55,118 bases of DNA from contig JAJFGG010000073.1 in assembly GCA_021776235.1 (NCBI GenBank), positions 1-55,118 on the forward strand, in the 5' to 3' direction. Below the pieces are notes generated by a model that saw only the letters and a list, made by a program, of their open reading frames with translations, did no database searches and was not told where the DNA came from. This document shows positions 6,633 to 43,536 of this stretch, in pieces (the stretch's first letter is position 1; each line of letters begins with the position of its first letter). Source of the DNA: Alphaproteobacteria bacterium (lineage in GTDB: Bacteria; Pseudomonadota; Alphaproteobacteria; GCA-2731375). The position numbers and the translations under genes are program-made.

Positions 6633-6649
6633 CGTCCTTATTTCCTGTC

Positions 6650-7651: not shown

Positions 7652-7688
7652 ACCACGTTTACAGAACATAGATCCGTTTGACCGCACT
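7648..7688. repeat. Dispersed palindromic repeat, half copy
   Basis: Begins CTAGACCACG and matches a second copy at 24533-24581 over about 35 bases with two or three differences. In both places the first bases supply the TAG stop codon of the upstream + strand gene. This copy lacks the right arm CGTGGTCTAG that closes the palindrome in the other. Confidence 0.7.
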
Positions 7689-7763
7689 TCCCAGGTCCCA
7701 GCCTCCCGTCGATGAACCAGGTAACGATCGCGAATGCCGCAGCATTTCCAATCATGCCTATTC

Positions 7764-9767
7764 TTATGGCTGCTGATTTTTTTCTGTCAGATTGAATTGC
7801 TCGGTAGCCGGCAGCCTCATCGATGGCGAGATGACGAAGACTCTGTAGAATCCGCCTCTCGGAATCTTTAGCCCCACCGAATAGACGCCGGCCTTCTGGT
7901 GCTGCGCGACGAGCCGCCGCTGCCAGGCCGGTGAGAATATGAGGACGGTTAGATCGGCGATATCCTCGGCCGGTACGCCGGTTGCCGCATGGGTCAATTT
8001 GAACGATAGCTCCAGCGGTTGGCCCACATCGAATTGATTGTTCTTCCGTAACGGCTCTACCCGCACGCGCGGGCCGTAGGCCACGGTCCGCTTGATCGGA
8101 TCCTTATCCACGCGCAAAGCAAAACAGTGCAAGACCCGGGGCGTATCGAGAAAGAAGACCAACCGGTACTCGCCCGATTGTCGAAGCCGCACGTTGGTTT
8201 GATAAAGTCCAGCGTCTGTTTCACGCAAATTTCGTTCGACCGCCAGGACCGCGCGCGGCTCGTGTCCATAGTTGCTGAAGTTGCCCATGGGAGCGGCCAT
8301 GCCTTCTTTATAGTAGTAAATCGCCTGATCGCCAGGATTGGCGACCAGGGCCGCATAGGCCCCGGAAGCCTGGACAATGGCATTCGCCAGACTGGGCCGC
8401 GAGGTACGGCCAAGCGCGTGCTGGCCGCCGGGAAAATCAACAATCGGCACCTCCTCGCCTTCCACCCCTATTTGCGAGAGGGGAACCATGAGGACCACCT
8501 CGCTGTCCCGATGCCGCACATAGGCCAATTCGTCGGTGAATGAAATCTGATCCGGGCCTTCCATGACCTTGGCCACTTGTATAATCCGATTGGCCGCAAG
8601 GTCGAGGATGCTGACCGTGTCGTTGACCGGGTTCGGGACAAATCCGAACCGGCTCCCCGGAGCGACCCGCACTTGAGCGATGCCCGGCTCGGCCTGAATT
8701 TGCGCGATCTGCTTAAACGAGCGTCCGTCGATGGCGGTGATGCGGCCATCTGTTTCGTTTGCGATATATGCCGCGCCAGCCATTTCAGCGAAGATGACCG
8801 ACACCGGCGCGGTCCCTACCCGCAAATCCTGCACCTTTTGCAGCGTGCGAATATCCACTACCGATACTGTTCCGGCGTCCCGGTTCGTGATGAAGGCGTA
8901 GCGGTTGTCTGCCGTGAAGGCGATATCGTGTACACCGGCGCCGGTCTTGATATTGCCGACAACCATGAGATCGGACAGGCGAAGCACGGAGACGCCGGAG
9001 GCGCCGTCTTGGTCTTCGGCGACGGCAATCCACAAATATGCCTGATCCGGCTGCAGCGCGAGGCGCGTAGGTTTTGGCCCAACGTCGAGGTTTTTTTTCA
9101 CGCTCCAGGACGAGGTCTCGATTACGGCGATACGGTCCGCCTCCGGCATCGAGACAAATAGACGGTCCTGGTCGTCGGTGAGCACCCAGTCTTCGCCCGG
9201 ACTCGACAGCTTGATTAAATTGAGGAGTTTGGTTCCTCCAAAGCCGAATAACGGATCGACAACAGTGATCGTTGGATCCGCATTGAGCGCCAGCACGTAA
9301 TAGGCATTGAGGTCCAACTCGGCGCGACTGAAGATACCGCCGCCCAGTAAACGCTTCACGCGTTGCTGGCACGTTCCTGTTCGTCCGCTTCCGTCCTCGG
9401 CGAGCAAATCCATCCAGGCGGCCGGAAAAGCGCCTCGCAACGGCAGATTTGTGGCGCTGTCGCTGATCCGGAAGCGCACGGACACCTCGTCGCCCGCAGT
9501 CAAAACCCCCGGCACGCGGCCTTCACCGTCCAGTGGAACGATTGAGGCTTCGATGGCGAGGCCCTGATGCTTATAAATTTCCCGAAACGGGATGGTATCG
9601 GCTGCCGGCCGTAAACCGGCGCCGTTCTTGACGGATTGGGCTGTCACCGAGATGCCCGGAAGAAGCAAGATCGAGGCGACAGCCAACCAGAATTGTATGC
9701 GCCAGAAGAAACGACCGGAAATTAGCGAGCAGAGATGCCAGGTTCGAAGTTCGAGGTCTGTTTGCAT
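7764..9767 (-). CDS. Secreted YVTN-type beta-propeller protein next to the multicopper oxidase
   Basis: 667 aa with an N-terminal export segment (about residues 20-43, ending VTAQS). An N-terminal beta-sandwich is followed by repeated propeller blades with the pattern seen in YVTN/YncE/cytochrome-D1-like proteins (RLFVSMPEADRIAVIETSSW, RYAFITNRDAGTVSVVDIRT, AAYIANETDGRITAIDGRSF). After about residue 480 two further beta-rich domains follow, ending in a segment like those of secreted copper-associated proteins. There is no haem motif. It lies 258 bases downstream of the giant multicopper oxidase on the same strand and is probably co-transcribed, so it may be a partner or stabiliser of that oxidase in the periplasm or outside the cell. 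Confidence 0.75.
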   Translation of the reverse strand: MQTDLELRTWHLCSLISGRFFWRIQFWLAVASILLLPGISVTAQSVKNGAGLRPAADTIPFREIYKHQGLAIEASIVPLDGEGRVPGVLTAGDEVSVRFRISDSATNLPLRGAFPAAWMDLLAEDGSGRTGTCQQRVKRLLGGGIFSRAELDLNAYYVLALNADPTITVVDPLFGFGGTKLLNLIKLSSPGEDWVLTDDQDRLFVSMPEADRIAVIETSSWSVKKNLDVGPKPTRLALQPDQAYLWIAVAEDQDGASGVSVLRLSDLMVVGNIKTGAGVHDIAFTADNRYAFITNRDAGTVSVVDIRTLQKVQDLRVGTAPVSVIFAEMAGAAYIANETDGRITAIDGRSFKQIAQIQAEPGIAQVRVAPGSRFGFVPNPVNDTVSILDLAANRIIQVAKVMEGPDQISFTDELAYVRHRDSEVVLMVPLSQIGVEGEEVPIVDFPGGQHALGRTSRPSLANAIVQASGAYAALVANPGDQAIYYYKEGMAAPMGNFSNYGHEPRAVLAVERNLRETDAGLYQTNVRLRQSGEYRLVFFLDTPRVLHCFALRVDKDPIKRTVAYGPRVRVEPLRKNNQFDVGQPLELSFKLTHAATGVPAEDIADLTVLIFSPAWQRRLVAQHQKAGVYSVGLKIPRGGFYRVFVISPSMRLPATEQFNLTEKNQQP

Positions 9768-10025: not shown

Positions 10026-13000
10026 TTAATTGGACCAATTGATCCCTCTTGGCTGGAACTGCCTGCCGTCTTGAAGCTGCGGAATCTCAACAGTATCGCC
10101 TTCAGCCTCGGTTTTCGCGGCCCTGGGTGCCGGACCCGTTGTTGGAATTAAGCTCGGGTCGATATTCACCGCGGCCGAAATGACACTCGGCGCTTTGGCG
10201 TGCCCGTGCTGAGTCGAGACGACCTTAATCGGGAAGGGTTTACCAGCGGCCTTAAAGGTGAGTTGCCAGGCGCCCGTCAAAGCGTCCACTTGCACCTTAG
10301 GTACTTTCCGCTTGTCGCCAAAAGTTAATTTGACCGACTTGGCCATCTTTTGGTTGGACGGATTCACCGAGTTAACACCAGTGATCAAATAGTCCTTGCC
10401 ACCTTTCAAAGCCTGAAGCGCTGTAATGGTCACCACGTCGCTTTTGGCTTCGCCAACCCGAAAGACACCCCATATTCCTCCCGTATTCTCGCTGGCGATG
10501 AAGCTCCGGTAAAGATAGTCGCCGGTCACTTCGCCGGCGCCGCCGGCTTTCTTCAGGACGATGTCAAACTGATTGTTCGGGCCAAACTTGTCGCGCGCAC
10601 CCATCCACTGGGACTTGCGATTAGTGCCGATCTTCGAGGAACCATCCACATACGGCTCTTCCTGCCAGGCGTGGCCATGCAAGGCCCAGGTCTGCACGGC
10701 AAGACCGGCCGGATGCACCATGCGCATCCGCACTGGCATGCCCTTCGACGAGGTGAAGACCGGCGTCTCGGGATCGCCGGCCACCAGGGTGTTCGACACG
10801 TAACGCATGATGCCGCGTGGCGAAAGGCGCGTTTTATTGGTTTCCCAATCCGGGTCCGCAAACCGGTAGCTGAGCGGTTCCGTTCCATAGTTTACCGAAC
10901 GGGCGAAGGTTGTACCGGCCGCCGCAGCACCTTTCACATTGTCATGCACAATTGTCACATGCTCACGGAAGAGGAAGTTCTTTGCTTCGCACTTGCCGTA
11001 GACAAATTTTGACTTATAGACATTCGCCGACGACGGCGCGTTCGGGTCTTCCGCCCAGCACGAGCCCGCCGGCTCGATGATGAGCGCCCCGATCATGCCG
11101 TAGGGCGATTGCATGAGCGGATCGGAGGGCGACAGGCTGGCGCTGCCGAATTCGACCGCTCTATGGACCGGCTTGCCGGACTTGCCCGGCTCGATGATGC
11201 CCGCGTACCAGGTGTACACGACACTTTTTCCGAATGGCACGACCTGTGTCTTTGGGTTGAGGCCGATTATAACACCGTTGCTCGTTGTCACGTCCGCCGA
11301 GACCAGCTGTGCATGAAGCCCCACATACTTCGACGTATTTATCGGGATCTTGGCGTTAACGGTCTGGCCGTCAATCTTGGCCGGCGCAAACTGGATATTC
11401 GAGCCGCCGTTGTTGGCGTCTTTGATGCTGTTGCGCAAGGTGATCTTCAGGCATTCGCCCGCGGCCGCGCGCAGGATCAACGGCTCGATGGCTGCTTGCG
11501 CCTGTTTGCTCGATACGGGCGTAGTGCCAATTTTCGTCAATACGCCGTTCGTGAGAGCCGAGGTGTGCACGTACAACAAGGCATCCGGATCGATAATGGG
11601 TTGCTGAGGATCGATAATCGCCTGCCCGTTCGAGGTAATAGCTCTGCCGCGGGCATTGTAGACGAGCCCCCCACCAAGGGCCTGTTTCGCCGTCGTCGCG
11701 GTCACATCATACTCACGAACGTACGCGCCGGCCGGACACACCGGGACCGGACGCTCCTTCTTGGCGATTGGGTTGTTCGGCAGCGGCTGCAGTTTTGGTT
11801 CAGTCTGCTCGTTGCCATAGGCGCGCAGCAGACCCCAATTGCCATATGGCAAATCGGCCCAGCTGGACGAGGTGACATACATATAATCAGCTTGCTTGTT
11901 ACCAGCCTGCTTGCGCGGGCCCAATACTGGCGGAAGGTCGAACAGCATCTCGAAATGCTCCGAAATACCCATACTCTGGGTGCTGCGGTAACCCGAATTG
12001 ATGTCCGCCGGCTCGAAATACCATCGCAAGCCGTGAAGATTGAACGCGTGCGGCGCCATATGTGCGCCCACCAGGGTCCGGATCTGCACCTTGTCGCCTT
12101 TGTAGGCCCGCATTAACGGCGTGTAGGGATCCGTCGCCCCGGCACCGGGGAATGGATCTTCGAATTTGAACCCACCCGGTTCGGCAGGATTGATCGGATC
12201 CTGCCGGTCCGGCTGCTTGTTCTGCACCGCGTCGAACCGTTTGATCGAGGCGAATGCGAACGAAAGGTCGGCTGCCTCGGTTTTTTCCATCCCCGTCAAG
12301 GGGACCGGGTTGTTTTTGGGCTTGAACATCCGCAGCGCCAAGGGCTCGTTCCGGTAGTTCACCGAATAGGTGCCGGTCGAGATTCTATTCGTCACCAGTA
12401 TTGGATGCGTCACCAATGACCCACCAGACGGAGGGTTAATGGCGGATTCAGGCGCGGTCCAGCCCCAGGGCTTGGTATCCTTGGGAACTTCCGCGGGATC
12501 TGGGTGTCGGCCATAGTCGCTGTCGGGACCGGGGTACGGGACCGGCTCCTGCGGACTGCCGGCATTGTAGGTCAACTGGCGGTCCTGGAACTCGAGGTTG
12601 AACTCGCGGTGGCTGTTCGAGGGATCTGCGGCAATGATATCGGCCGTCCAACTGGTCGGTCCGCCGTCTCTTACGGCCCCGTTGCCGCCATTCGGAGGCG
12701 TTGCCAGTCGATCTCCGAACAGTTTGCTGGTGATCGGATCCCGCCACGTGGACCCTGCCGGCTCGACTACGAGACCGGCGTACAGACCCGCTTGTTGATT
12801 GGTCGATGGGCTGAAGTGATCGTGGGTAAACACCGTCCGGATCGTCCGGTCCTTGCCCATATTGTTGAGCAGCGGATCGGCGTACCAGCGTTGCACCGTC
12901 GCCTGGGCGCCTAGCCAGTTTTGCCCAACTGCGGACCCATCACCGAAATAGGGAATTACCTTGGCCGACAGCCCCGTCTGGGCCGGAACAACTGGATTTG

Positions 13001-15881
13001 CCAGATCCTGGTACTGGTAGAGGCCGCCCGCGTCATTGATGTGCTCGATCAGTTCGCGGACCTCCTCGGCGGCGTAGGTTCCATCCTCGTAATTGAAACC
13101 GTTTGCCGCGCCATCGGAGGCCAGCACATCGAACTTGACCAGATGAATGTGCTGGCCAAGCACATCGGTCGGTGTGCGAACCTGAAAGTCATCAAGCTTG
13201 TAATAGTTTGGCACAAAATTTGCCAGCCAGAACTCTATGACCTCGCCGCTATTGGCGCGGAAGAAAAGCGGCTCGGGCGCGCGCGTACCGTCCAGCGTAT
13301 CGGCGACGTCGCCCCACAGGCTTATCATGCGCTGCTGTGGGAAATGCCAGCCCTTTTTATTGAAGACGACGTCGAGCTCAATGTCGGCCGCTTTATACTG
13401 GCGCACGGTCCTAACCGCCTCGCCATCCAAGGTGATGCCGGGCTCCGCATAGGGCGCGCCACGCGCCGGCGGCTGACCGTTGAGAATAAAGTCAGCCGGC
13501 GTGCCGTCGGGCTTGATGCTCGGATGAAGCCGTTGGGCATGTGCCTTCATGGCGGCTATTTCCGCCGGGGTGCCTTCTTCCGGCAGTTGCATGACGACGG
13601 GTTCGTTATTGTTTTTGGTGAAGTCCCAGGCATTATGCCTTTCGTATATGATGTCGTCACTGACCGCGACGTGACGCGGCAGACCGCCATCAAGATTGAG
13701 CGGCGTGCCGTCGGCAGCTTTCCGCTGGATACCCTGGTCGTCGAGGTCCGGAGCGAAGTCCATTGGCGGATGCGAAATCCGCTGGCCGGCGACACCGGCT
13801 ATGAAATACGGAAAACCCGGGTTCATGCCCTTGTTTATATCTTCCTGGTTCACCTCAACCATATAGCCAACAGGCGCGTTGCCGGCCGCCGGACTTTTGG
13901 CCTCGACGAGCCGCACGCGCGCCGGCAGCGGCGCCATTGCGATCGTCGGCACCGGAACGACGGCCGGTGTGGGCGAGCCCTGCGCAATTTCGCCGTCGGG
14001 CAACGCCCTGTTCCAGACATCGTTGCCGTTGACGGGAATACCATTCTTGTCGAGGCGGGTGCCTTCCTCGAACGTGTCGTGGACACGCCACAAGGCCCAC
14101 ATGCCCTGAGCGAAATGGGGATAGAAATGGCAGTGAAAGATCGAATCCCCCGGGGTCTGGTTCTTATTGCCGCTGCCCCGATAGACATATTCCAACGTGT
14201 AGGAGGCGCCCGGGCTGATCATCTGGCTGTCGCGGTAGTGGCTGTCGTCACTATTGGGCGAGTGCAGCCACTGGTGCGCATGCTGATGGTGGACGTGCGT
14301 TATGTTGGCACTGGCATGCAGGATCCGGTAAACCGCGTGATCACCGATGTAGCTATGGTAGACGTTGGACGGATCGTCAGGATAAAAAGCTTTCGTCGCC
14401 TTCTTGCCCAGCTTCAGATTGCCATCCTTATCGGTCGTGTTGGCGGGAAAATCGACCACCATCGCCGGGTCACCGTTCGGCCAGGAACTGAGAAAGAACT
14501 CTTCGTACTTGCAGGTGGCGCAATCAGCCATCGGCCCGACGCCTAGACGATTGGCCCAGATCGGCGGACCAATCGCCGCCATACCGTAATTGATCGCAAA
14601 GAAATCGCGTCCGCCCTGCAGCGCCTGGAACACCTGAGCGCTACTATCCTCGAACGCCCCGAAGCTCTGTTTGGCATTAAAGTCGTCATGATAAATGACA
14701 ACGATCTCGCGATACGGTTGACGCCGGTCCGGGCTGGCCGGCACCGGGTCGAACTCTGGACCCTTCTCGCTTTTTGGGAACCGGCCGTGCTTGGGTCCGG
14801 TGATTATGGCGGTCAGATCGCTGTGGACAAGTTCGCGCGCCGGCTTACCGTTGATCGGCTTGATGTCCATGTACATTTTCAAGATCGGCTCTCCGCCGAT
14901 GTCGGGACCGTTTGGCTCGCTCGGATAGTGTGTGCCGGGCTTGTAAAGCGCATCGTAGTCCATCACCGGAGGGCGGTCGGCAATATTTTTGCTGCTCGCG
15001 GCCGCAAGATCGGCCTGACTGACCTGGCTGCGATACCACTCAGCCTGGGCCGGCTGCACGGTCACGGCACCGAACAGTCCCTGGAATAGCTGGCCACCGT
15101 TTCCGAGATTCCTTTGGCCGACCATGCCGGCCTGGCTGGTTAGCAGATAAGAACCAAGTTCGGCGGCATAGAGCTCGTAGGTAATCGACTTGCCAGGCGG
15201 CACAAGACCGCTGTTGACCGGATAGGAGGCCGGGTCGCCATTCGGATTTTCCGGGGTGAAGAACTGGCCATTCGCGCCCCCCCAGGCCCCGTCGGACGCA
15301 ATGCCGCCGACCGCCTCCAACCCGGCAACATGGACGCCTGCGTAGCGCGTCGGGGGTTGCACCCAATTCGACGCGTTGTTATTTGGTGGCTCCGAATTTT
15401 TGGGTGCTTCGCTGACCAGTTTCTCGTTCGGCTGGTAGGCATTGCCTTCCTTCACGGGAAAGTTCTTGGGCTGCAAATTCGTCGCAGGCACGCCACGCTG
15501 CATCGGCAAATTGCTGAGCAGATTGGTGAACTTGATGCGAAGGCAATCGCCCTGGTTCACGCGCAGCACGATGGGACGCGCCCGTTTATCCGGTCGCAAC
15601 ACCACCTGGCCAGGATAAAGCCGTTTGTTGCCCGCATTGGTACTACGAACGTCGCGCTGCAGCGCGAAAATCATGCCACCGGCCTGCAGGGCACCTAACC
15701 GGTTAATGTAGAAGGCCTGGTCAAGGGCGACGACTTTTGCATAGACCCACCCGCGGCAAAAGTCCGGCCCCTTGCCTGTCGCCGCCTCCGCGTTTGCAAT
15801 GGCTGCTGTCGCAGCCGCAAGCGGAACGGCAAACAGGACTGCCAGTGATTTCCGGATTCGAGCGGTTCCAAGCAATGACAT
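10026..15881 (-). CDS. Giant multicopper oxidase, MofA/McoA/MnxG-like (putative Mn(II) oxidase)
   Basis: About 1951 aa with a signal peptide (RKSLAVLFAVPLAAATAAIA, cut near NAEA). It consists of many cupredoxin domains. Copper motifs, at approximate residues: HVHHQHAHQWLH (527-540), FHCHFYPHFAQGMW (577-591, type 1/type 3 site with axial Met), HIHLVKF (907), HDHFSPS (1012), HAFNLHG (1272) and LHGHAW (1727). Size and this order, with the HCH motif in the first half instead of the C-terminus, fit the very large bacterial Mn(II) oxidases (MofA, McoA, MnxG) and not a 500-aa laccase. The ATG at 15881 was preferred for its GGGGG-rich ribosome site; a GTG at 15923 is in frame. The neighbouring propeller protein and the SCO chaperones and cytochrome c fusion farther off support a copper-dependent extracytoplasmic oxidase. 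Mn as substrate is inferred. Confidence 0.8.
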   Translation of the reverse strand: MSLLGTARIRKSLAVLFAVPLAAATAAIANAEAATGKGPDFCRGWVYAKVVALDQAFYINRLGALQAGGMIFALQRDVRSTNAGNKRLYPGQVVLRPDKRARPIVLRVNQGDCLRIKFTNLLSNLPMQRGVPATNLQPKNFPVKEGNAYQPNEKLVSEAPKNSEPPNNNASNWVQPPTRYAGVHVAGLEAVGGIASDGAWGGANGQFFTPENPNGDPASYPVNSGLVPPGKSITYELYAAELGSYLLTSQAGMVGQRNLGNGGQLFQGLFGAVTVQPAQAEWYRSQVSQADLAAASSKNIADRPPVMDYDALYKPGTHYPSEPNGPDIGGEPILKMYMDIKPINGKPARELVHSDLTAIITGPKHGRFPKSEKGPEFDPVPASPDRRQPYREIVVIYHDDFNAKQSFGAFEDSSAQVFQALQGGRDFFAINYGMAAIGPPIWANRLGVGPMADCATCKYEEFFLSSWPNGDPAMVVDFPANTTDKDGNLKLGKKATKAFYPDDPSNVYHSYIGDHAVYRILHASANITHVHHQHAHQWLHSPNSDDSHYRDSQMISPGASYTLEYVYRGSGNKNQTPGDSIFHCHFYPHFAQGMWALWRVHDTFEEGTRLDKNGIPVNGNDVWNRALPDGEIAQGSPTPAVVPVPTIAMAPLPARVRLVEAKSPAAGNAPVGYMVEVNQEDINKGMNPGFPYFIAGVAGQRISHPPMDFAPDLDDQGIQRKAADGTPLNLDGGLPRHVAVSDDIIYERHNAWDFTKNNNEPVVMQLPEEGTPAEIAAMKAHAQRLHPSIKPDGTPADFILNGQPPARGAPYAEPGITLDGEAVRTVRQYKAADIELDVVFNKKGWHFPQQRMISLWGDVADTLDGTRAPEPLFFRANSGEVIEFWLANFVPNYYKLDDFQVRTPTDVLGQHIHLVKFDVLASDGAANGFNYEDGTYAAEEVRELIEHINDAGGLYQYQDLANPVVPAQTGLSAKVIPYFGDGSAVGQNWLGAQATVQRWYADPLLNNMGKDRTIRTVFTHDHFSPSTNQQAGLYAGLVVEPAGSTWRDPITSKLFGDRLATPPNGGNGAVRDGGPTSWTADIIAADPSNSHREFNLEFQDRQLTYNAGSPQEPVPYPGPDSDYGRHPDPAEVPKDTKPWGWTAPESAINPPSGGSLVTHPILVTNRISTGTYSVNYRNEPLALRMFKPKNNPVPLTGMEKTEAADLSFAFASIKRFDAVQNKQPDRQDPINPAEPGGFKFEDPFPGAGATDPYTPLMRAYKGDKVQIRTLVGAHMAPHAFNLHGLRWYFEPADINSGYRSTQSMGISEHFEMLFDLPPVLGPRKQAGNKQADYMYVTSSSWADLPYGNWGLLRAYGNEQTEPKLQPLPNNPIAKKERPVPVCPAGAYVREYDVTATTAKQALGGGLVYNARGRAITSNGQAIIDPQQPIIDPDALLYVHTSALTNGVLTKIGTTPVSSKQAQAAIEPLILRAAAGECLKITLRNSIKDANNGGSNIQFAPAKIDGQTVNAKIPINTSKYVGLHAQLVSADVTTSNGVIIGLNPKTQVVPFGKSVVYTWYAGIIEPGKSGKPVHRAVEFGSASLSPSDPLMQSPYGMIGALIIEPAGSCWAEDPNAPSSANVYKSKFVYGKCEAKNFLFREHVTIVHDNVKGAAAAGTTFARSVNYGTEPLSYRFADPDWETNKTRLSPRGIMRYVSNTLVAGDPETPVFTSSKGMPVRMRMVHPAGLAVQTWALHGHAWQEEPYVDGSSKIGTNRKSQWMGARDKFGPNNQFDIVLKKAGGAGEVTGDYLYRSFIASENTGGIWGVFRVGEAKSDVVTITALQALKGGKDYLITGVNSVNPSNQKMAKSVKLTFGDKRKVPKVQVDALTGAWQLTFKAAGKPFPIKVVSTQHGHAKAPSVISAAVNIDPSLIPTTGPAPRAAKTEAEGDTVEIPQLQDGRQFQPRGINWSN

Positions 15882-16104
15882 GATAAACACCCCCAAAGGC
15901 CCCCTTCGCGGGCGGCTTCTCACGAAGGAGACGCGCTAGTTGTTCATACCGTCAATCTTGGTTGTTTAGATTGCGGCATTTATCCAAGCTTGTTAATTGC
16001 ATAAAAGTGCTAGCATATCTTCCGGTTTAGGGCAATGTTTGATTGCGCGCTTAGGCTTCAAGGGCGCGCCACAACTCTCATAAGTATGTGCTGCCAACGT
16101 CGAA

Positions 16105-28933: not shown

Positions 28934-29337
28934 GTTACAAAATCCTTGCCAAAGCAAAATGTGAACATCGGAAAGCGGGTAAACAATCCTATGCCCGTGC
29001 CGGCCGCGTGGCAAGGATATCGCCTTGCCGGTACCCCTTATATTGAACGGACCCACCTTCCGTGAAGACCATCGCGGCATGGAAGGTCATGCAGCGCGCC
29101 GGCGTCGATGAAACGGTTGCCATGGCCGATCTTTGGCTCGAGGTGACCGGCGGCGAAGCCTGAGGTTCAGCTCTTGGAGCCTCGGCGATGTCTGGGCGGA
29201 CAGGATTTCGATGACAGTGCGCTTTTGCGGTTGCGGCGACACAGTGTCGGTCTTGAGCCGAATGCGCCGCCGACAGGGCCCGCCGGCGGCGTTTGCCTAC
29301 GGGCTCATGTCGTCATGATTGATGCTTGCAAATAGCG
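28934..29337. other. Intergenic region, no clear gene
   Basis: 404 bases. A 33-codon frame from GTG 29062 to TGA 29163 has sensible amino-acid use but no family I know. The remainder is GC-rich and shows no hairpin or RNA gene that I can support. Confidence 0.4.
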
Positions 29338-30111
29338 CTACGGTTTGCGCCCCATGAAGGCATAACCGAAAACCTCGAATTTGCGGGCGTTGGGTTCGCC
29401 GCCCGCGCCGCCAAAGGTATCGACGGGCGGTCCCAGGCGCAGATCTTCAAATCCCGTATCCCGCATCATTTTCTGCCAGCCTGCACACGGCATGCCACCA
29501 GCGATTCAAGCGGTCCAAAGGTCGATGTTGCTCACGGCAGCCTCCGGAACCGGCTGGCCGTTGGCGATGTCGGCGAATTGCAGCACCCCGCCCGGCCGCA
29601 GGATGCGCCAGATCTCGGAAAAGACCTGTTGTTTGTCGGCGCACAGGTTGATGACGCCGTTGGCGATCACCACGTCCACCTGGCCGTCATCCACCGGCAA
29701 CTCCTCCAATATACCTTCGCGGAATTCAACCTGATCCAGGCCCATGGTCTGGGCGGTGGCGCGGGATTTGGCAAGCATTTCCCGGGTCATATCGACGCCG
29801 ATGACCTGGCCGCCGGGGCCGACCTGTTGGGCCGCGATGAAGCAGTCGAAACCACCGCCCGAGCCCATATCAACGACCCGTTCGCCGGCTTCAAGGGGAC
29901 GCAGGGAAAACGGGTTAGCAACGCCGGCGAATGATTCCACGGCCGCATCGGGCATGGCGCCCACCACCACTTCGTCATAGCCCAGTCGCCTGGCCAGGGG
30001 ACGTCCCGTATGAAAATGAAATTCTCCATGGGGGTCCAGGGCCACATCCCGGTACTTGTCCTTGACTTCCTCTCTCAAGGCAACGGCATCGACAAGCGTG
30101 TCAGTGCTCAT
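29338..30111 (-). CDS. ArsM-like SAM methyltransferase with in-frame TGA (candidate selenoprotein)
   Basis: 257 codons if TGA at 29506-29508 (codon 202) is read through; otherwise a 201-aa truncation. ATG with GGAAGGG upstream. It has the ArsM-like fold: RRLGYDEVVVGAMPDAAVES, motif I VVDMGSGGGFDC (79-90), VIGVDMTREMLAKS and LRPGGVLQFADI. Before the TGA the frame reads SNIDLWTA and after it IAGGMPCAGWQKMMRDTGFE, ending in KFEVFGYAFMGRKP at a TAG. ArsM-type enzymes have a conserved Cys at the TGA position (WxxC-IAGA-like), so Sec at a Cys site is the simplest reading. The N-terminal Cys of true arsenite methyltransferases is absent, so arsenic as substrate is doubtful. Alternatives are a nonsense mutation or sequencing error; intact family sequence for 55 codons after the TGA argues against old decay. 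Confidence 0.7.
29473..29505 (-). promoter_or_regulatory. Possible bacterial SECIS region after in-frame TGA
   Basis: Bacterial Sec insertion needs a hairpin shortly after the UGA. Here GCC (ending 17 bases after the UGA) can pair with GGC across the 7-base loop GTGTGCA, which starts with G, with an outer CTG/CAG pairing. Spacing fits, but the stem is short and interrupted, so this is weak support. Confidence 0.2.
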
Positions 30112-30206
30112 CCGATTTTCCCTTCCAAATTCCGGCCAACAACCTGGCCGCATTTATCCCACTCTGGCGAACCGCTTCGGGTTTCCCGGAAGCTGTTTGC
30201 TTTGCG

Positions 30207-30370
30207 TCAGGCGACCATAGCGAACTCATACTTCCGTGCATAGCCGTTCGCCTCTGCTTTGGCGGTTGAACTGTTACCGATAGCGCCGAACAGGTGGCGG
30301 GTGTTGAACCATTCGCTTCATTCGAGGGCGCTATCTCGACCGCTTCGAAGCAGCACTGCGGGCCACGGCG
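30207..30370 (-). pseudogene. IS3-family transposase, 3' remnant
   Basis: In shifting minus-strand frames this reads RRGPQCCFEAVEIA, then after a frameshift LE-stop-SEWFNTRHLFGAIGNSS and finally AKAEANGYARKYEFAMVA to a stop at 30207. IS3-family OrfB proteins end with a very similar block (RRGPWRSFEAVE, EWVxWFNxRRL, IGNIPPAEAE). At least one frameshift and one stop show it is dead, and only the last 55 or so codons remain. No terminal inverted repeat was recognised. It lies between the methyltransferase promoter side and the DM13 gene. Confidence 0.65.
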
Positions 30371-30488
30371 GTTTCTGCTGTTGCCTTCGGCATCGGGCCC
30401 GCGCAGGCTTGGCACGATTCACATCTGGCGTCCTTCGGGGCAATTCTGCATAATCGCGGGGGTATAGGCGGTTCGCGGGGGACAGCGT

Positions 30489-30971
30489 ATGTGGCGGATC
30501 ATCGGGGTGTTTCTGTTTGGCGCCATAGTTGGCACGGCATTTGGTGTCGCCGTGGGGTTTTTCGCCTTTCCCTATGTCTTCCCGCCGCCAGCCGCGAACG
30601 AAAGCCTGACCAAGGTTGAAGCGACGCGAGTCGTCGCGCGCGGCCAGTTCATCCACGCCAACCCCAGCGACCCGGTGCACTACGGCAAGGGCGCCGTAAC
30701 AGTCCACGAAGGTACGGTCTTTCTGGGGCGCGATTTTGCAGTTGGGCCGGGACCGAAGTACCACGTCTACCTGGCGCCAAAGGCCATGGTGCGGCGATCG
30801 GGCGACGTCGCCGGCAGCATGTTCATCGACCTGGGCCGCCTGCGCGCATTTGAAGGCAGCCAGAAATACGCCATACCCGCCGGTGTCGATCTTGCCGGCT
30901 ATCCCAGCGTGGTGATCTGGTGCGAGCAGTTTGGCGTGCTCATTTCTCCAGCGGACCTGGCTTTTCAATAG
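30489..30971 (+). CDS. DM13-domain exported/membrane-anchored protein
   Basis: 160 aa. An N-terminal membrane anchor or signal (IIGVFLFGAIVGTAFGVAVG, residues 4-23) is followed by a single DM13 domain: GQFIHANPSDPVHYGKGAVT, FLGRDFAVGPGPKYHVYLAP, MFIDLGRLRAFEGSQKYAIP and the C-terminal YPSVVIWCEQFGVLISPADL with the conserved Cys. DM13 domains have been proposed to take part in extracellular redox or electron transfer. It is a lone + strand gene and the last chromosomal gene before the tRNA-Thr attachment remnant. Confidence 0.88.
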   Translation: MWRIIGVFLFGAIVGTAFGVAVGFFAFPYVFPPPAANESLTKVEATRVVARGQFIHANPSDPVHYGKGAVTVHEGTVFLGRDFAVGPGPKYHVYLAPKAMVRRSGDVAGSMFIDLGRLRAFEGSQKYAIPAGVDLAGYPSVVIWCEQFGVLISPADLAFQ

Positions 30972-31112: not shown

Positions 31113-31158
31113 TGGTGCCGGCGACAGGAGTCGAACCCGTGACCTACTGATTACAAAT
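31113..31158 (-). other. tRNA-Thr(TGT) 3'-end fragment, attachment site (attL)
   Basis: On the minus strand this reads anticodon loop TTTGTAA (anticodon at 31153-31155), stem half TCAGT, variable loop, T arm ACGGG-TTCGACT-CCTGT, acceptor strand CGCCGGC, discriminator A and CCA. The 5' half (D arm, 5' acceptor GCCGGCG) is absent: sequence right of 31158 has no tRNA match. It therefore cannot be a working tRNA and fits the 3'-end duplicate left by integrase-mediated insertion. Confidence 0.85.
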
Positions 31159-31306
31159 TTGAAAACCGTACTTTTCACTAGCCGACACCAGCCGCCATAC
31201 ATACTATATTTCAATGTGTTACCAGACACGCCCCGACAACAACTGACTTGATTTTGATAGATATTGGTTGCTATATGGTATCTAGCAACCAAATTGGAGA
31301 CGGCCA

Positions 31307-32647
31307 ATGGCAAGCAAACGTCGGATTACGAAGACGGTCGTTGATAAGTTGAAGCCCGGTGAAATTGTATGGGACACGGAGATCAATGGCTTCGGTGCCC
31401 GCTGCCAGAAACAGGCGAGGGTCTACGTTCTGAAGACCCGGGAAGGCGGACGGCAGCGTTGGTTTACCCTGGGCCGGCATGGCGCGCCGCTAACCCCTGA
31501 CGATGCCCGCAAGGAGGCGTTGAGCAAACTGGGTGCCATCGCTGACGGCAATACGCCGGCCGCTTCCCGTGATGCCGCCAAGCGGAACCCGATGCTGAAG
31601 ACCTACGCCCTTGATTTCATGCGTGACCACGTTCAGGCCAAGCGCAAGTCGCGTACCGCCGACAGTTATCAGGACCTGCTTGATCGCCTGATCATACCTG
31701 TGCTGGGCAATCTGAAACTCAAGGATGTTCAGCTCGCCGATGTGGCTCGCCTACACAGGAAATGGCGGCGCACACCCTATCAGGCTAACCGGGCCCTGGC
31801 CTTGGTCTCCAAGATGCTCAATCTGGCCGAGCGCGATGGATTTCGGACGCACAATTCCAATCCCTGCCGGCATGTGGAGAAGTTCAAGGAGGAGAAGCGC
31901 GAACGGTTTTTGTCCGAGGTGGAATTAGCGATCTTGGGTGAGGTCCTTGTTGATGCGCTGCGAGACCGTTCGGAAAACACCTATGTGGTCGCAGCCATCC
32001 GATTATTGCTGTTCTCCGGCGCTCGGGTCAGCGAAATTCTTGGCCTGCGCTGGGAGTATGTCGATTTTGAAAGGGCGATGCTGCGCTTGCCGGATAGCAA
32101 GACAGGGCAGAAAAGCATCTACCTGTCCGCGCCGGCGCTAGAGGTTCTGCATAACCTGCCGCGTCTCGAAACCAACCCTCACGTCATCGTCGGAGACAAA
32201 TCCGGCGCCGCCCTGGTGAACATACAGAAACCGTGGCGGCGCCTTCGAAAGGCGGTGACGGTGCGGCTGTGGGCGGAGCATGGGAATGAAGCCACCCGAC
32301 AATTGGTCGCGAACTTGGCCGAGAAGTTGGACAGAACGCCTACATGGAGGGAATGCACCCGGGCTGCGGAGGCTGAAGATCTAACTCTGTCTGCAGGCCT
32401 GGTGGATGTTCGGCTGCATGACCTACGTCACTCCTTCGCTTCCGTGGCGGCCACCGGTGGCATGTCACTGCCGATGATCGGCAAACTGCTGGGTCATACC
32501 CAGGCTGCGACGACCCACCGCTATAGTCACCTCTCTGCCGATCCGGTGCGAGCGGCCAATGAGGCTATTGGCCAACGCATAGCCGCAATGATGCAGGGCA
32601 AGGATGAAGTAGAAAATGTGGTCCCATTACTGAAGTCTGCTGATTGA
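31307..32647 (+). CDS. Tyrosine-type integrase of tRNA-targeting island
   Basis: 446 aa. N-terminal arm-binding DUF4102-type domain (VWDTEINGFGARCQKQARVY, WFTLGRHGAPLTPDDARKEA), a core-binding SAM-like domain around residues 100-190, and a catalytic domain with Arg in LFSGARVSEILGLRW (near 239), HDLRHSFAS (near 371-379), GHTQAATTHRYSH and the Tyr nucleophile near 405. Between the Arg and HxxR motifs it carries an extra charged helical insert of about 50 residues (RQLVANLAEKLDRTPTWREC) longer than in many relatives. Its position next to the tRNA-Thr fragment identifies the target. RBS TTGGAGACGG. Confidence 0.93.
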   Translation: MASKRRITKTVVDKLKPGEIVWDTEINGFGARCQKQARVYVLKTREGGRQRWFTLGRHGAPLTPDDARKEALSKLGAIADGNTPAASRDAAKRNPMLKTYALDFMRDHVQAKRKSRTADSYQDLLDRLIIPVLGNLKLKDVQLADVARLHRKWRRTPYQANRALALVSKMLNLAERDGFRTHNSNPCRHVEKFKEEKRERFLSEVELAILGEVLVDALRDRSENTYVVAAIRLLLFSGARVSEILGLRWEYVDFERAMLRLPDSKTGQKSIYLSAPALEVLHNLPRLETNPHVIVGDKSGAALVNIQKPWRRLRKAVTVRLWAEHGNEATRQLVANLAEKLDRTPTWRECTRAAEAEDLTLSAGLVDVRLHDLRHSFASVAATGGMSLPMIGKLLGHTQAATTHRYSHLSADPVRAANEAIGQRIAAMMQGKDEVENVVPLLKSAD

Positions 32648-36984: not shown

Positions 36985-38007
36985 CGGGCGTTTGGCTTCC
37001 TTTGCCGGCGTTTCACGTAGTTGCGAGCTTCGCTGTCCAACCCGACTGCGAATGCTCGAAGTTAGGATAGTCTCATCAAACTGTCAGGCAGTAGCAACGA
37101 AATAGCAGGCTGTGCAGGATTGCCGATCCGGGCCCTCTTACAGGCTTTTGCCAAATTATTGATGTACTGATTTTTGGGTATGTCACGAGGCACGTTTTTG
37201 ACCGCCTGCATCGCCGCCGTCCTTGTAGGCAACGGCCTGGGTGGTTCTAAGACCCCTTGACGCACATGCGCATCAAACCATCCCTAGGTGTCCCTCCCCC
37301 CTACTCGTTTTGGGCCATTTTTGGCAGTCTTCCGGAAACCGGCTTTTTGGTTGATGCCGTCGTGGTTGCACGGCCCATTGGTATAAATGTCATTGCTTCA
37401 TTCCACACAAATCGAAGCTTTTGGTGGGGGGGATACTCACCCATTCGGCCAGATGGTTGAGCCCACCGTTTGCTCACCAACCAACGGTTAACTAGTCCCC
37501 AGCCGGAAATTTAGAGTTGGCTGCGCGTTGCGTCGCGCACCAATCGGGGTAGTGGAGGTCTCTTGGGGCGGTCGAATGCGGAGTTCCCAAGAAAGAATTT
37601 GGGAAGCTGGCGTCGGCCGGCAGAATTTGAACTTTTTCACGGGAGTAAACTGTCGGTTTACAGCCCAACTGGCGTGAGCGCCTCCTTTCATGCGGGTTCG
37701 AAAACTACGAACAAGCATTTGTGCATAGCCTCGTGCGGTAGGATCAAATGGATCTGACTGGGGACGTATTCGTATTCTATTTGGTTCCGCAATTTGTTGA
37801 TCGCGACGCAGCCTCGGTCTTGGCCGCGCCAAAAGCCGCGCACAAGTTAAGCCCCGCAAGTATCAGCGCTATTTCTACTATTACCAAAAGATGGCGGCCA
37901 CTATTACGCTCAGCCGGGAAACAGGCGGCGAGATGACACAATTCCTCGAAGCGTGTCATAATAAATTTTCGCGGAACTATCAGTGCGAGAAGGGTGGGAA
38001 TTGCGAC
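36985..38007. other. 1-kb non-coding gap before the helicase-nuclease gene
   Basis: No frame here has a recognisable protein. A 6-bp inverted repeat GTAAAC/GTTTAC at 37645-37661 and a mixed base composition are the only structures noted. It separates replication genes from cargo and should contain the promoter for the large helicase. Decayed genes or a small RNA cannot be excluded. Confidence 0.45.
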
Positions 38008-41000
38008 ATGTCATCGGACGAGGGAGCGGGAAACATCCTCTACGCGGGCAATGTGCAAACAGGCCTTGAGCGCTTACGCAAACGCCTTTTGGACTTAACG
38101 ACCCGCAACCGATTATTGGGGTTTCGCTTTCCGACGCGCGGCTCGTTACGCGTGGTCGATGAATTGCCGGACCAGTTGTATGAAACGCTAGTCGATGGCG
38201 CCAGTTTGACGATCATTCCCGTTCCGGAACCGCGAGCGGACGAATTGCGCCCCCTCAATGACGAGAGCACAGTCACGACAGAAGAGAAACCCACGGCACC
38301 GGAATGGGCTGCTCGTCTGGGATTTGCAACTTCCTTCGATCTGCCTGAAGCAACACCAGAGGAAGGTGAACTCGACCGGCACCAGGACAAGTATATCCAG
38401 ACCCTCCTGTATCCGGATCGCCTTGAAGCCGTGCTGCGGTCCATCCGCAGTGCCGCCCGCACGGCAATTGAAGAGTCCGGCACCAACATGTTGCACATTG
38501 CCTTCGGCTTCCTCGAATGGAAGGAGGCCGATGACGCGGCGACGCCACATTTCGCGCCTTTGTTGCTGTTGCCGGTCACTCTGGACCGTGGGCGGGTGGA
38601 TCGAACAACCGGCACTTATCGTTACCAGATCTCATATTCCGGCGAGGATGTCTTGACCAACCTCTCGCTGCGGGAAAAACTCGACCGTGATTTCGACTTG
38701 GCTTTGCCGGCGATTGAAGACGAAGACCGACCCGAAGCTTACTTCGACAAGGTGGCCACGCTGGCGGCCCACAAGCCAGGCTGGCGGGTCAGACGGCAAG
38801 TAGCCTTGTCCCTATTTCAGTACGGTAAGCTGCTGATGTACTTGGATCTGGACCCCGAACGCTGGCGTGACGGCGGCGGCCTGGAACGGCACGAAGCGGT
38901 TCGCAGATTTTTCGAAGGTGGCGAGGTTTCCGGTGACATGACGGCAACCGAATACGAAGTCGACCACAACCCACAATTGACTGCGCAGCTGCCCCTGATC
39001 GACAGCGCCGACAGTTCGCAGCTATCAGCCTTGATCGACGCCCTGGACGGCCGCCATCTGGTCATTGAGGGGCCACCCGGTACCGGCAAATCGCAAACCA
39101 TCACCAATCTAATTGCCGCCGCCCTGTACCAGGGCAAGACAGTGCTGTTCGTTTCGGAGAAGCTCGCGGCGCTCGAGGTTGTGCGCCGGCGCCTTGAGCA
39201 GGCCGGCCTGGGTGATTTCTGTTTGGAGCTGCATAGCCACAAGACGCAAAAACGGGCCCTTCTGAACGATCTGGAACGTCGACTTCGGAAAAAGGGCACC
39301 TATCGCGAGGCGACGAAGCTGCAACAGCGAATGCAGGCATTGCAGGAAACCAGGACACGCCTGAAGGCGCATGCGGTCAGAATGAGCCAACCACATGGTT
39401 CGTTGGGCGATACCGCCTGCGAAGTGCTGTGCAAGGCCACGCGCTATCGCTTGGAGATGGACGATAACGTCGCCATGCTGTCAGAGATCCATGTTGATGA
39501 TCCGGCGGCGATCGGCCCGGCCGAGTACAACCGCGCCCTGGAAGATTTACGCATCTACGCGGAGGCTCATGCCCGGCTGACCGCGGATTTCGGCGCAATT
39601 CTGGAGCATCCCTGGGCTGGTGTCGGCAACCGTGATCTGCAGGCCTTCGACAGCAGCCGAATGGCGGCATTGGGCACCGCATGGCGGGACAGGGCATTGG
39701 ACTTGGCTGAACAGCTGGATACCTTGCACCATAAGACCGGGCAGACGGGCGCCGCCACGATGACCGGGGTCCGTGCGTTGGCCGAAGCCGCCGATGCCAT
39801 TCCGGTTCCCGCCGACAACGCCCTGTTCGAAGTGCTGCCGCACGTCTCCGACCCGGAAGGGAACAAACATCTGTCGCGTTTCGGCGACCGACTGGCCGAA
39901 TACAGGGCGGGCTGCCAGGCCTTGGGTGAGATATTTGTCGGCGCGGACCCGGCGGACCGCGCGGCGCGGAATAACATCGAGACCTTAACAAATAAATTGA
40001 TCGGGACCGTAAGGCTTGAACCCACACTGACGAATTTGCGACCGGTCGCCGAAAGTCTGCGACACCTCGCAGCCAAAGTGAAAGAGATTTCGGACGAGGT
40101 GACGCAGATCCTGCCGACTTTTCAAGGCAGCGTTCGCTTTGACGGCGATGGCGTGGATGAATTGCTGAGAATATTGCGAATTTGCGGGGATGCGCCGATC
40201 ACGGCATTGGACCTGCGCGATCCACTGTTCGACGCTGTTGGCGTGGACCTTACGCTGGATATCATTACCACTGAAATGCAGGTTCTTGATGACGAGGAGG
40301 GGGCCCAGAGCCTGCTGTTCGACCTCGCCAGCCTGCCGCCAAGGCAAGACATCGCCAGGGCCAGCCACACCTTGGCCAAGGCTGGCGCCTTCCGTTGGCT
40401 CAACGGCGAGTGGCGGGCAGCCCGGCGGCTCTACCGTAACATTGCCAAAACACCAAAACTGCCCAAATCAGAACAGCCTGCCGGGCGGTTGGAAGATCTG
40501 CTTGCCTACCTCGACCGCTGCCGCGCTTTCGAGGCTGCACCGGAAGCAAAAAACGTTCTCGGGCACCATTTCTCCGGTCGCGGCACCGACCTGGCGGCGC
40601 TTCGCGCCATGCGGCAATGGTATCGCTGCGTGCGCGAAGAATTCGGTCAAGGTCTGGGCGCGCGGGTTGCCATCGGCGAGAGCCTGCTTTCAACGCCCAG
40701 CGCCATTCTGCAGACTCTGGCGCATGCCGCGTCTGGCGAGTTTGCGACGGGCCTTCAAGACATTGCCACGGATCTGCGGGCCTCCGCTGGATTACTTTTG
40801 GAACCGGTATCTGTCGGCACCATGGGTTCTGATCTTGCCACTGCTACAGACCGGGTCGAACAGCTTGCTGATGATTTGGAGAAAACGCTGCTGAAACTGA
40901 TCGAGGCCGGCGCCCGCGAAGACCGGTCCTTGAAGGCACTATTGTCGGGCGTGGTCCTGCTAGACCGCTGCAGTGACCTGCGGCGTGAGATAACGGATGA

Positions 41001-43536
41001 TGAGATCGCCCGGCAATTGCTGGGGCAGAACTTCCAGGCCGAACAGACCGATATCGAAGCGCTTTTGGCCACCCTGGCATTGGCTGCTGCGATTGAGGCG
41101 GCCGGCTTGCCGCCGTTATTGAGTCGCTGGCTGTTGTCGCAGGGCCAAAGGGAGGCTTTCGCAACACTGCGGCGGGACCTAGTAAACCTTGGCGAGTTCG
41201 CTGATATCTATGATCGAGATTTCGATGCCTTTCGCACAGAGGCCGAATTGGTCTGGGAATTGTGGTCTGCCGGCAACGCGGATGATTGTCCGCTAGGGGA
41301 AATTGCCGCGCGGTGCGACAGAGCCGTCAATGAGCCAAAGGCACTTAGCTCGTGGCTCGACTATTGGCGATCACGCCTGCGCCCCTCCTTCGGGCCATTG
41401 CGGGAATTGGTGGTGCTGGTCGAGCAGGGCCAGCTCCCGCGATCGTCGCTGCCAACGGCGCTGCATTACCTGGTTTACGACGCCATGGCCCGCGAATTGC
41501 TGCGCGGTGATGAGGCATTGCGGGATTTTAGCGGTTACGATCACGAGGTGCTACGGACACTCTTCGCCGAATTGGATGACGAGATCATCGAACTGCAGCA
41601 GCAACAGATCGCCCACACCATCGATCAGCGGTCCGTGCCAGGCGGCGTGGATCGAGGGACGGCGAAATCGCGCACCGATACCCGGCTGATCGAAGCCGAG
41701 ATTGGCAAGCGGCGGGCCCATATCCCCATTCGCCAGTTGGTTCTGCGCGCGGGCGGCGCTTTGCAGGCTCTCAAGCCATGTTTCATGATGGGGCCGCAAT
41801 CGGTGGCGCAATATCTTCAGCCCGGCGGCCTTTCGTTTGACATTGTGGTGATGGACGAGGCATCGCAATTGAAGCCCGAAGACGCAATCGGCACAATTGC
41901 GCGCGGCCGGCAACTGGTCGTCGTCGGCGACCCAAAGCAACTGCCGCCGACCAGCTTCTTCGATCGCATGTACGGCGATGACGAAGACGCAGAGGAGGCA
42001 ACCGGGGTTGAGGAATCCGAGAGTATTCTGGATGCCGCCATTCCCCTGTTCAAACCAGTGCGTCGCCTGCGCTGGCACTATCGATCCCGCCACGAAAGCC
42101 TGATCGCATTTTCCAACGAAAAATTCTACGACGGTGACTTAATTGTTCTGCCGTCTCCCCACGACGCCGGCGATCAATTTGGTGTTTCTTTCTTGCATGT
42201 ACCGGATGGGGTGTTCCGCAACCGCCGCAACACAAAGGAAGCCCAGCAGGTGGCCGCCGCGGCGATCGGCCACATGCGGCGACAGAGGAATGAATCCCTC
42301 GGCATCGTGGCGATGAATGCAACCCAGGCGGAATTGATCGAGATAGAGGTCGAGGCCTTGTTGAAAGACGACCCGCTGGCCCAGGCTTATATCGATATCC
42401 ATCGGAACCGGGCCGAACCGTTCTTTGTCAAGAATCTAGAGAATGCCCAGGGTGACGAACGTGACGTCATGATCATATCCTTCACCTATGGCCCGGCGGC
42501 GGTGGGAGAGCCGGTGCTGCAACGTTTCGGGCCGATCAACGGCGACGTTGGCTGGCGCCGCCTGAACGTTCTATTTACCCGCGCCAAGAAACGGGTAATG
42601 GCCATTTCCTCCATGACCACCGATGACATTCGAGTGGGGCCGGATTCACGGTTGGGCGTGCGCGCCCTGCGTGACTATCTGGCCTATGCCGATACCAGAA
42701 TTCTTGACCAGCCGCGTGAAACGGGCCGCCCGCCCGACAGTGATTTCGAGATCGCCGTCGCCCGGGCCTTGGAACAAGCGGGCTATGCCTGCACCGCGCA
42801 GGTTGGCGTGGCCGGCTTTTTCATCGATATCGCCGTCCGCCATCCGGACCGGGCCGGCGGCTATCTGCTGGGCGTGGAGTGCGATGGCGCCACCTATCAT
42901 TCGGCGAAGTCGGTGCGCGACAGGGATCGTCTGCGGCAGATGGTGTTGGAAGGGCTGGGTTGGCAGATCCATCGCATCTGGTCGACCGACTGGTTCAAGG
43001 ACCCGGACAGTGAAATTCGCCGCTTGACCGGGCGTATAGAAGTCTTGCGGGCGGCGCTTCACCCGACCCCGGAGGCACAGCCATCGATCGAACCACCGGT
43101 TGAAGCGACTCGCCCGGTGCCGGACCATGCGCCGGAGGAAATGAAGCCATCGGCGCCCAATATCCAGCCGCTGGCGGACGATCTGTTCGCGCTCGGTACG
43201 GCGACGGCCACCGAACCTTTCGATGCCACCGGATCGCCCGGGCAAGGCGGGGTGGGCGGCAACGATCTGCACAACGGCGCTTTGGGTCTGGCCGATGCCC
43301 GCGAACGCCTAATCGAACTGCGCGAGAACATCATAAAAATCGAGCGGCCCGGCGCTGATCCCGCCACGGGTTTGCTGCGCAAACGGATGCTGGACGCGTT
43401 ACTGCGCACGCTGCCCACCGATGGCGATGAATTCCGCCAAAAAATACCGTTCTCGCTGCGCCAGGGCACCGACGGCGGGCAATTGCAGGAATACGGCGAT
43501 AGAGTGTTCGAAATCCTGGCTGAGGCGCGGGCCTAG
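38008..43536 (+). CDS. DUF4011-type SF1 helicase with Vsr/DUF559-like nuclease domain
   Basis: 1842 aa. ATG at 38008 with GAGAAGGGTGGG upstream. The N-terminal DUF4011 signature is RLRKRLLDLTTRNRLLGFRF. An SF1 helicase follows, with Walker A GPPGTGKSQTITNL near 355, Walker B VVMDEASQLKPEDA near 1279, DPKQLPPTSFF, and NVLFTRAKKRVMAI; a long helical insert separates motifs I and II. Near residues 1576-1665 is a restriction-fold nuclease: FFIDIAVRHPDRAGG, LGVECDGATYHSAKSVRDRD, GWQIHRIWSTDW. The end (about 1760-1842) resembles DUF3320 (MLDALLRTLPTDGDEF, IPFSLRQGTDGG). Single-gene proteins of this build are known or suspected antiphage defence factors (Hhe-like). As island cargo, a defence role is likely. 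Convergent with the minus-strand cluster, 28 bases apart. Confidence 0.88.
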   Translation: MSSDEGAGNILYAGNVQTGLERLRKRLLDLTTRNRLLGFRFPTRGSLRVVDELPDQLYETLVDGASLTIIPVPEPRADELRPLNDESTVTTEEKPTAPEWAARLGFATSFDLPEATPEEGELDRHQDKYIQTLLYPDRLEAVLRSIRSAARTAIEESGTNMLHIAFGFLEWKEADDAATPHFAPLLLLPVTLDRGRVDRTTGTYRYQISYSGEDVLTNLSLREKLDRDFDLALPAIEDEDRPEAYFDKVATLAAHKPGWRVRRQVALSLFQYGKLLMYLDLDPERWRDGGGLERHEAVRRFFEGGEVSGDMTATEYEVDHNPQLTAQLPLIDSADSSQLSALIDALDGRHLVIEGPPGTGKSQTITNLIAAALYQGKTVLFVSEKLAALEVVRRRLEQAGLGDFCLELHSHKTQKRALLNDLERRLRKKGTYREATKLQQRMQALQETRTRLKAHAVRMSQPHGSLGDTACEVLCKATRYRLEMDDNVAMLSEIHVDDPAAIGPAEYNRALEDLRIYAEAHARLTADFGAILEHPWAGVGNRDLQAFDSSRMAALGTAWRDRALDLAEQLDTLHHKTGQTGAATMTGVRALAEAADAIPVPADNALFEVLPHVSDPEGNKHLSRFGDRLAEYRAGCQALGEIFVGADPADRAARNNIETLTNKLIGTVRLEPTLTNLRPVAESLRHLAAKVKEISDEVTQILPTFQGSVRFDGDGVDELLRILRICGDAPITALDLRDPLFDAVGVDLTLDIITTEMQVLDDEEGAQSLLFDLASLPPRQDIARASHTLAKAGAFRWLNGEWRAARRLYRNIAKTPKLPKSEQPAGRLEDLLAYLDRCRAFEAAPEAKNVLGHHFSGRGTDLAALRAMRQWYRCVREEFGQGLGARVAIGESLLSTPSAILQTLAHAASGEFATGLQDIATDLRASAGLLLEPVSVGTMGSDLATATDRVEQLADDLEKTLLKLIEAGAREDRSLKALLSGVVLLDRCSDLRREITDDEIARQLLGQNFQAEQTDIEALLATLALAAAIEAAGLPPLLSRWLLSQGQREAFATLRRDLVNLGEFADIYDRDFDAFRTEAELVWELWSAGNADDCPLGEIAARCDRAVNEPKALSSWLDYWRSRLRPSFGPLRELVVLVEQGQLPRSSLPTALHYLVYDAMARELLRGDEALRDFSGYDHEVLRTLFAELDDEIIELQQQQIAHTIDQRSVPGGVDRGTAKSRTDTRLIEAEIGKRRAHIPIRQLVLRAGGALQALKPCFMMGPQSVAQYLQPGGLSFDIVVMDEASQLKPEDAIGTIARGRQLVVVGDPKQLPPTSFFDRMYGDDEDAEEATGVEESESILDAAIPLFKPVRRLRWHYRSRHESLIAFSNEKFYDGDLIVLPSPHDAGDQFGVSFLHVPDGVFRNRRNTKEAQQVAAAAIGHMRRQRNESLGIVAMNATQAELIEIEVEALLKDDPLAQAYIDIHRNRAEPFFVKNLENAQGDERDVMIISFTYGPAAVGEPVLQRFGPINGDVGWRRLNVLFTRAKKRVMAISSMTTDDIRVGPDSRLGVRALRDYLAYADTRILDQPRETGRPPDSDFEIAVARALEQAGYACTAQVGVAGFFIDIAVRHPDRAGGYLLGVECDGATYHSAKSVRDRDRLRQMVLEGLGWQIHRIWSTDWFKDPDSEIRRLTGRIEVLRAALHPTPEAQPSIEPPVEATRPVPDHAPEEMKPSAPNIQPLADDLFALGTATATEPFDATGSPGQGGVGGNDLHNGALGLADARERLIELRENIIKIERPGADPATGLLRKRMLDALLRTLPTDGDEFRQKIPFSLRQGTDGGQLQEYGDRVFEILAEARA

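Follow-up and report, generated by a model that had tools for sequence, protein, structure and literature searches.

A gene on the minus strand of a 55,118-nucleotide contig from an alphaproteobacterium (the window, by which we mean this whole stretch of DNA) is best explained as encoding a stand-alone selenocysteine (Sec)-containing methyltransferase of the ArsM superfamily, with hairpin-directed decoding of an in-frame TGA and soft-metalloid methylation as the likeliest activity. We put the probability of this overall reading at roughly 85%. The TGA itself, at codon 202, almost certainly encodes Sec, judging from comparison with homologues. The comparative sequence evidence covers this decoding, purifying selection both before and after the TGA, the predicted ArsM fold and the equivalence of residue 202 to the catalytic Cys224 of CmArsM.

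Reading frame and conservation of the TGA codon

The frame opens with an ATG at 30111-30109, reaches the TGA at 29508-29506 and continues through 55 sense codons to a TAG at 29340-29338 (Table 1). The original prediction had described a single TGA interrupting an ArsM-like methyltransferase, followed by 55 codons to a TAG, and translation together with Pfam and NCBIfam searches agrees with that description; its coordinates also stood, but the gene lies on the minus strand. Translated with TGA as U, the product has 257 residues and a single U at residue 202, whereas the frame without recoding gives 201 residues, or 215 if translation begins at an alternative in-frame ATG upstream, at 30153. The protein matched Pfam Methyltransf_31 over residues 74-214 (E 1.4e-30). 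Its best NCBIfam match was a Sec-containing ArsM/AhpD fusion (216.6 bits), followed by NF008823, an arsenite methyltransferase model (216 bits, residues 12-227), each under its curated cut-off. As judged from these matches, a SAM methyltransferase frame of ArsM type spans both sides of the TGA. An Rfam search of the window at gathering scores returned no match, and a consensus scan of 29050-30500 found neither a sigma-70-type promoter nor an intrinsic terminator.

Table 1. Features of the methyltransferase gene in the window
Feature	Position	Strand	Basis
CDS of ArsM-like methyltransferase selenoprotein, 257 residues, including TAG stop	29338..30111	-	translation with TGA as U; Pfam and NCBIfam matches; AlphaFold2 model; CmArsM structure match
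In-frame TGA, codon 202, predicted Sec; aligns with CmArsM Cys224	29506..29508	-	31 TGA and 20 Cys forms in tree set; alignment to PDB ArsM chains
Cys209 codon; in all Sec forms and no Cys form of the tree set (few independent events)	29485..29487	-	tree-set alignment
Cys157 codon ('NLCADK'); in 30 of 31 Sec forms and 0 of 20 Cys forms (few independent events)	29641..29643	-	tree-set alignment
SECIS-like hairpin, bases 12-30 (T of TGA = 0)	29478..29496	-	pair counts and covariation, 21 distinct sequences

A homologue scan of 84,980 genomes yielded 49 loci. Codon 202 is TGA in 31 sequences including that of the window, and the other 30, which bear out the expectation that relatives with TGA at the same place might exist, share 56-88% identity with it. 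This Sec clade extends over Alphaproteobacteria, Betaproteobacteria and actinobacteria (Acidimicrobiia and Nitriliruptoraceae metagenome-assembled genomes). Members of the same genus carry the gene with one TGA, at the same codon, and are 86-88% identical to the window copy; for a related genus the figure is 77%. Outside the clade, nearly all relatives aligned at residue 202 have TGC or TGT there, with Ser at this position in a remote haloarchaeal match (26% identity); one sequence inside the clade (L046) also has TGC. An alignment of 35 sequences, of the kind suggested with the original prediction, has Cys or Sec at codon 202 in every row. On the tree of 51 sequences, comprising 31 TGA forms and 20 Cys forms, the state switches between TGA and Cys about three times. 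The recurrence of TGA at one codon in 31 sequences argues against chance or a sequencing error. Judged by dN/dS, purifying selection acts on the 55 codons that follow the TGA: ratios are 0.08-0.21 between the window copy and six relatives and 0.04-0.20 among the congeners, and those for the part before the TGA are similar.

A hairpin 3' of the TGA and the Sec machinery

Bacterial SECIS elements are hairpins immediately 3' of the UGA, with about 16-37 nucleotides to the apical loop and a G as the first or second base of that loop. The window copy can form a 7-pair stem with a 5-base loop, CGTGT, and 16 nucleotides between the UGA and the loop. In all Sec forms, bases 12-30 after the U of the UGA can pair, with a loop of CGUGU or CGUGC. 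The family hairpin thus agrees with bacterial SECIS elements in position, distance and loop, whereas the window copy alone folds weakly, no better than its own shuffles (z 0.22, against -1.6 and -2.2 for other family members). The stem of this copy and of those of its congeners contains one A.G mismatch. The original prediction had called its SECIS-like hairpin weak, which is accurate for the single copy, and it is covariation that backs the element across the family. Standard pairs make up 93.9% of the pair cells in the 21 distinct sequences, and the covariation score is 0.239, compared with 0.113 in shuffles, none of which (0 of 500) reached 0.239; no slid register came near the score of the true register. 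The pair between bases 18 and 26 is G-C in 13 distinct sequences and U-A in the remaining 8, with no mixed state. Its two bases are the last of codon 207 and the middle one of codon 210; sequences with Ala210 have G-C, and those with Glu210 or Asp210 have U-A. In each of the nine sequences with an acidic residue 210, codon 207 ends in T, although T occupies the last position of only 12% of the Leu and Val codons in these genes. Because the swap between G-C and U-A involves about three events on the tree, and one independent pair on its well-supported (starred) branches, the phylogenetic weight of the covariation is moderate. Our proposal is that this short hairpin, which follows immediately on the UGA, directs decoding of that codon as Sec by SelA, SelB and SelD with tRNA-Sec.

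The genome to which the window belongs is available as a fragmented assembly of 6.36 Mb in 174 contigs, 98.4% complete. We searched it for the sel genes, as had been suggested alongside the original prediction, and found selA, selB and selD; selC was absent from the assembly. The selA and selB genes are adjacent on one contig (C166), and a selD gene has an in-frame TGA at the classic GG(C/U)G motif, making it a second gene that needs Sec. There are two selD genes, L073 1501-2430 (C46) and L074 (C25), one of them with the in-frame TGA at GG(U)G; the other lies within a 760-residue open frame and is a fusion by appearance. No tRNA-Sec was found in this assembly with the RF01852 profile, a tRNA-Sec pattern or a BLAST search that used a congener's selC-thiolase region. 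C56 and C70 carry the RF01852 matches that exceed the gathering score, which are tRNA-Ser with anticodons cga and tga; those weaker matches that were examined proved to be tRNAs for Ser, Tyr, Cys and Phe. The BLAST search returned a thiolase paralogue at 70% but no selC, and the identical search recovered selC in G004 and G013. In congeners selC sits between a hydrolase and a thiolase, of which this genome has only paralogues (49-53% for the hydrolase, 70% for the thiolase); the whole segment is therefore missing from the assembly, through an assembly gap or a deletion. A tRNA-Sec with anticodon tca is present in all ten congeners and in the six other genomes of the class sample that carry the gene and were checked, and none was found in G012, a sister-genus genome that is 83% complete. 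Across 385 sampled alphaproteobacterial genomes, selA occurs in 56, and all eight with the Sec form have selA.

Could the TGA be a real stop, whether in a pseudogene, through a sequencing error or as the end of a functional 201-residue enzyme? The missing tRNA-Sec and the weak hairpin of the window copy would fit such a stop, as would the copy in G013 (L020 2060-3270, on C1), which is split by an insertion of about 1.2 kb with a transposase-like ORF, ISAs1-like by eye. Nevertheless, the TGA is kept in 30 other homologues, the codons after it are under strong purifying selection, relatives have Cys at this position, selA, selB and selD are intact, and a product truncated at residue 201 would lose core strands of the predicted fold (222-226 and 247-255), so that we consider termination at this codon highly improbable. 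We regard as more improbable still a changed genetic code in which TGA specifies another amino acid. Nothing beyond the open frame speaks for it, the homologues have Cys rather than Trp, and 12 of the 23 long high-GC3 ORFs of the window end in TGA; since TGA serves as a normal stop in the rest of the window, the recoding would be local. Decoding as Sec, as the original prediction had proposed, is the reading that accommodates the conserved TGA, Cys in relatives, purifying selection, covariation of the hairpin and the presence of selA, selB and selD.

Predicted fold, cysteine positions and known relatives

An AlphaFold2 model of the methyltransferase (mean pLDDT 91.6) is predicted to have the ArsM fold, with a SAM-binding Rossmann domain. 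Its best matches among solved structures are the As(III) SAM methyltransferase CmArsM (PDB 4fr0 and 6cx6; Z 26, rmsd 2.4 over 215-221 residues), with which it shares the fold over residues 32-257 at 28-29% identity, and CrArsM (Z 25). Sequence alignment to PDB ArsM chains places residue 202 at CmArsM Cys224, within the segment ECLGGAL, in keeping with the earlier claim that the TGA falls at a conserved Cys of ArsM-type enzymes. CmArsM has arsenic-binding cysteines at positions 72, 174 and 224, only the last of which is retained, as Sec202; Val64 and Gly152 stand in place of Cys72 and Cys174, and we could recognise no equivalent of Cys44. The original prediction had remarked that a Cys of true arsenite methyltransferases is missing, and with two ligand cysteines replaced the loss is greater than it stated.

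In the model, a loop that links helices 196-200 and 209-219 carries residue 202, and Cys209 starts the second of these helices. Sec normally substitutes for a redox-active or metal-binding Cys, and Sec202 would act as an active-site soft nucleophile or ligand. The roles of the missing ArsM cysteines may be filled by Cys209, which follows Sec202 by seven residues, and Cys157, which is close to where Cys174 has been lost, acting as ligands of the metalloid or in a selenenylsulfide or disulfide pair that resets the enzyme; together with Sec202 they may make up a new site for metalloid binding or redox chemistry.

The clade is not a new kind, since ArsM-like proteins with Sec have been described before: PMC13188914 and the 2008 GOS survey (PMC2398784) list arsenite methyltransferase-like proteins with Sec in a UxxG motif, and Fomenko et al. 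2007 (Science 315:387) is the work that a review cites for the arsenite methyltransferase case. The marine sequences of 2008 may include the present clade. These known proteins (the Sec forms of NF008823/PRK11873) combine the same SAM methyltransferase with U-x-x-G, here U202-I-A-G205, but the present clade scores under the NF008823 cut-off (216 bits for our protein, against 263, so that the arsenite-methyltransferase threshold is not reached), lacks equivalents of Cys72 and Cys174 and has its own Cys157 and Cys209. Because of the low score and the absent ligand cysteines, we do not file the clade as an arsenite methyltransferase, although it may act in the manner of one. Three fusion profiles, NF041537 (AhpD), NF041536 (DUF2284 fusion) and NF047649 (UXPK-star fusion), were the best or near-best matches, covering residues 7-228 at 197-217 bits, and their methyltransferase part shares the UxxG motif with our protein. 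They describe multi-Sec proteins with extra C-terminal parts, whereas the present protein stands alone, has one Sec and scores less than half their cut-offs; for NF041537 the 216.6 bits compare with a cut-off of 510, and our protein ends at residue 257 without a C-terminal AhpD domain or a second Sec.

Genomic neighbourhood and candidate substrates

In the window, the methyltransferase gene is a solitary gene flanked by a TauE/SafE-like gene and a DM13-domain gene, with a phage-type integrase next to it. The integrase (31307-32647, plus strand; Arm-DNA-bind_3 and Phage_integrase) adjoins an apparent tRNA 3' end at 31113-31157 (minus strand), tRNA-Thr by eye and ending in CCA, an arrangement that resembles the att site of an integrated element on its right. 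ARAGORN called a 'tRNA-SeC' at 31113-31192 on the minus strand, which we rejected: the tRNA-Thr-like end makes up its 3' half, the 5' half bears no relation to it, and the family matches listed include no tRNA-Sec. The window also contains two very long open frames, of 1965 residues (10026-15923, minus strand) and 1881 residues (37891-43536, plus strand).

Beyond close relatives, the loci of the Sec clade have no neighbour in common, and neither ars genes nor a conserved arsenic-resistance neighbour was seen beside the gene in the loci examined. In G208 the order is selA, selB, an MraY-like gene on the opposite strand, tRNA-Sec, the methyltransferase and selD; in this locus (L118, G208:C228:26500-37500) the cluster of selA, selB, tRNA-Sec, Sec methyltransferase and a Cys-type selD occupies 2261-8956. 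selA-selB adjoin the methyltransferase in two betaproteobacterial loci (L038 and L060). Genes of the DsrE family, which is associated with sulfur transfer, adjoin the gene in nine loci, namely three with Sec forms (L039, L041 and L045), one with a Cys form (L046) and five with more distant Cys forms. In three loci (L045, L054 and L055) the methyltransferase is accompanied by another ArsM-like one, a Cys form of the FHFP...TGR type that belongs to a different clade.

The proposed reaction would transfer a methyl group from SAM to a soft metalloid at Sec202, the candidates being As(III) and selenium or tellurium species. Metalloid methylation of some kind is slightly more likely than not, and arsenite as the specific substrate is less likely than not. 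An ordinary arsenite methyltransferase, one that detoxifies As(III) by turning it into methylated arsenicals and binds arsenic through Sec202, Cys209 and Cys157, would be consistent with the ArsM fold, with the Cys224-equivalent position and with the name 'arsenite methyltransferase' borne by the nearest NCBIfam models. There is also a precedent in TtArsM of T. thermophilus, which has a single Cys and no canonical arsenite site yet methylates arsenite (PMC8649762), although this enzyme keeps a different Cys (Cys77, in the N-terminal part), uses His and has no Sec. The score under the NF008823 cut-off, Val and Gly at the ligand positions and the lack of adjoining ars genes in the loci seen all argue against arsenite.

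A role in selenium or sulfur metabolism seems less probable again. Here the enzyme would methylate selenide or a selenol, or sulfide or a thiol, perhaps by way of a DsrE-like carrier, and so curb excess selenium where Sec is made. In G208 the gene stands between selC and selD, and in the two betaproteobacterial loci it adjoins selA-selB; these positions point this way, as do the DsrE-family genes that recur beside both Sec and Cys versions; on the other hand, clustering with sel genes may only reflect the machinery and a Sec gene travelling together, and most loci with Sec forms lack such neighbours. We think it distinctly unlikely that the Sec methyltransferase acts on selenium or sulfur species instead of arsenic and is a functional part of a selA-selB-selC-methyltransferase-selD cluster. 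Soft-metalloid methylation by a stand-alone selenoprotein remains our preferred reading.

By sequence, what is less usual in this clade is that the protein stands alone, that the other ArsM arsenic ligands are lost and that Cys157 and Cys209 are gained. With Sec202 as the sole surviving canonical ArsM ligand position, the clade would be a natural test of the role of that residue. Annotation pipelines tend to call such genes truncated methyltransferases of 201 residues. One lineage has the gene inside a selA-selB-selC-selD cluster and two others have it next to selA-selB, which provides a concrete lead on the function of the methyltransferase; if it does act in selenium or sulfur metabolism, it would be a selenoprotein that handles selenium itself.
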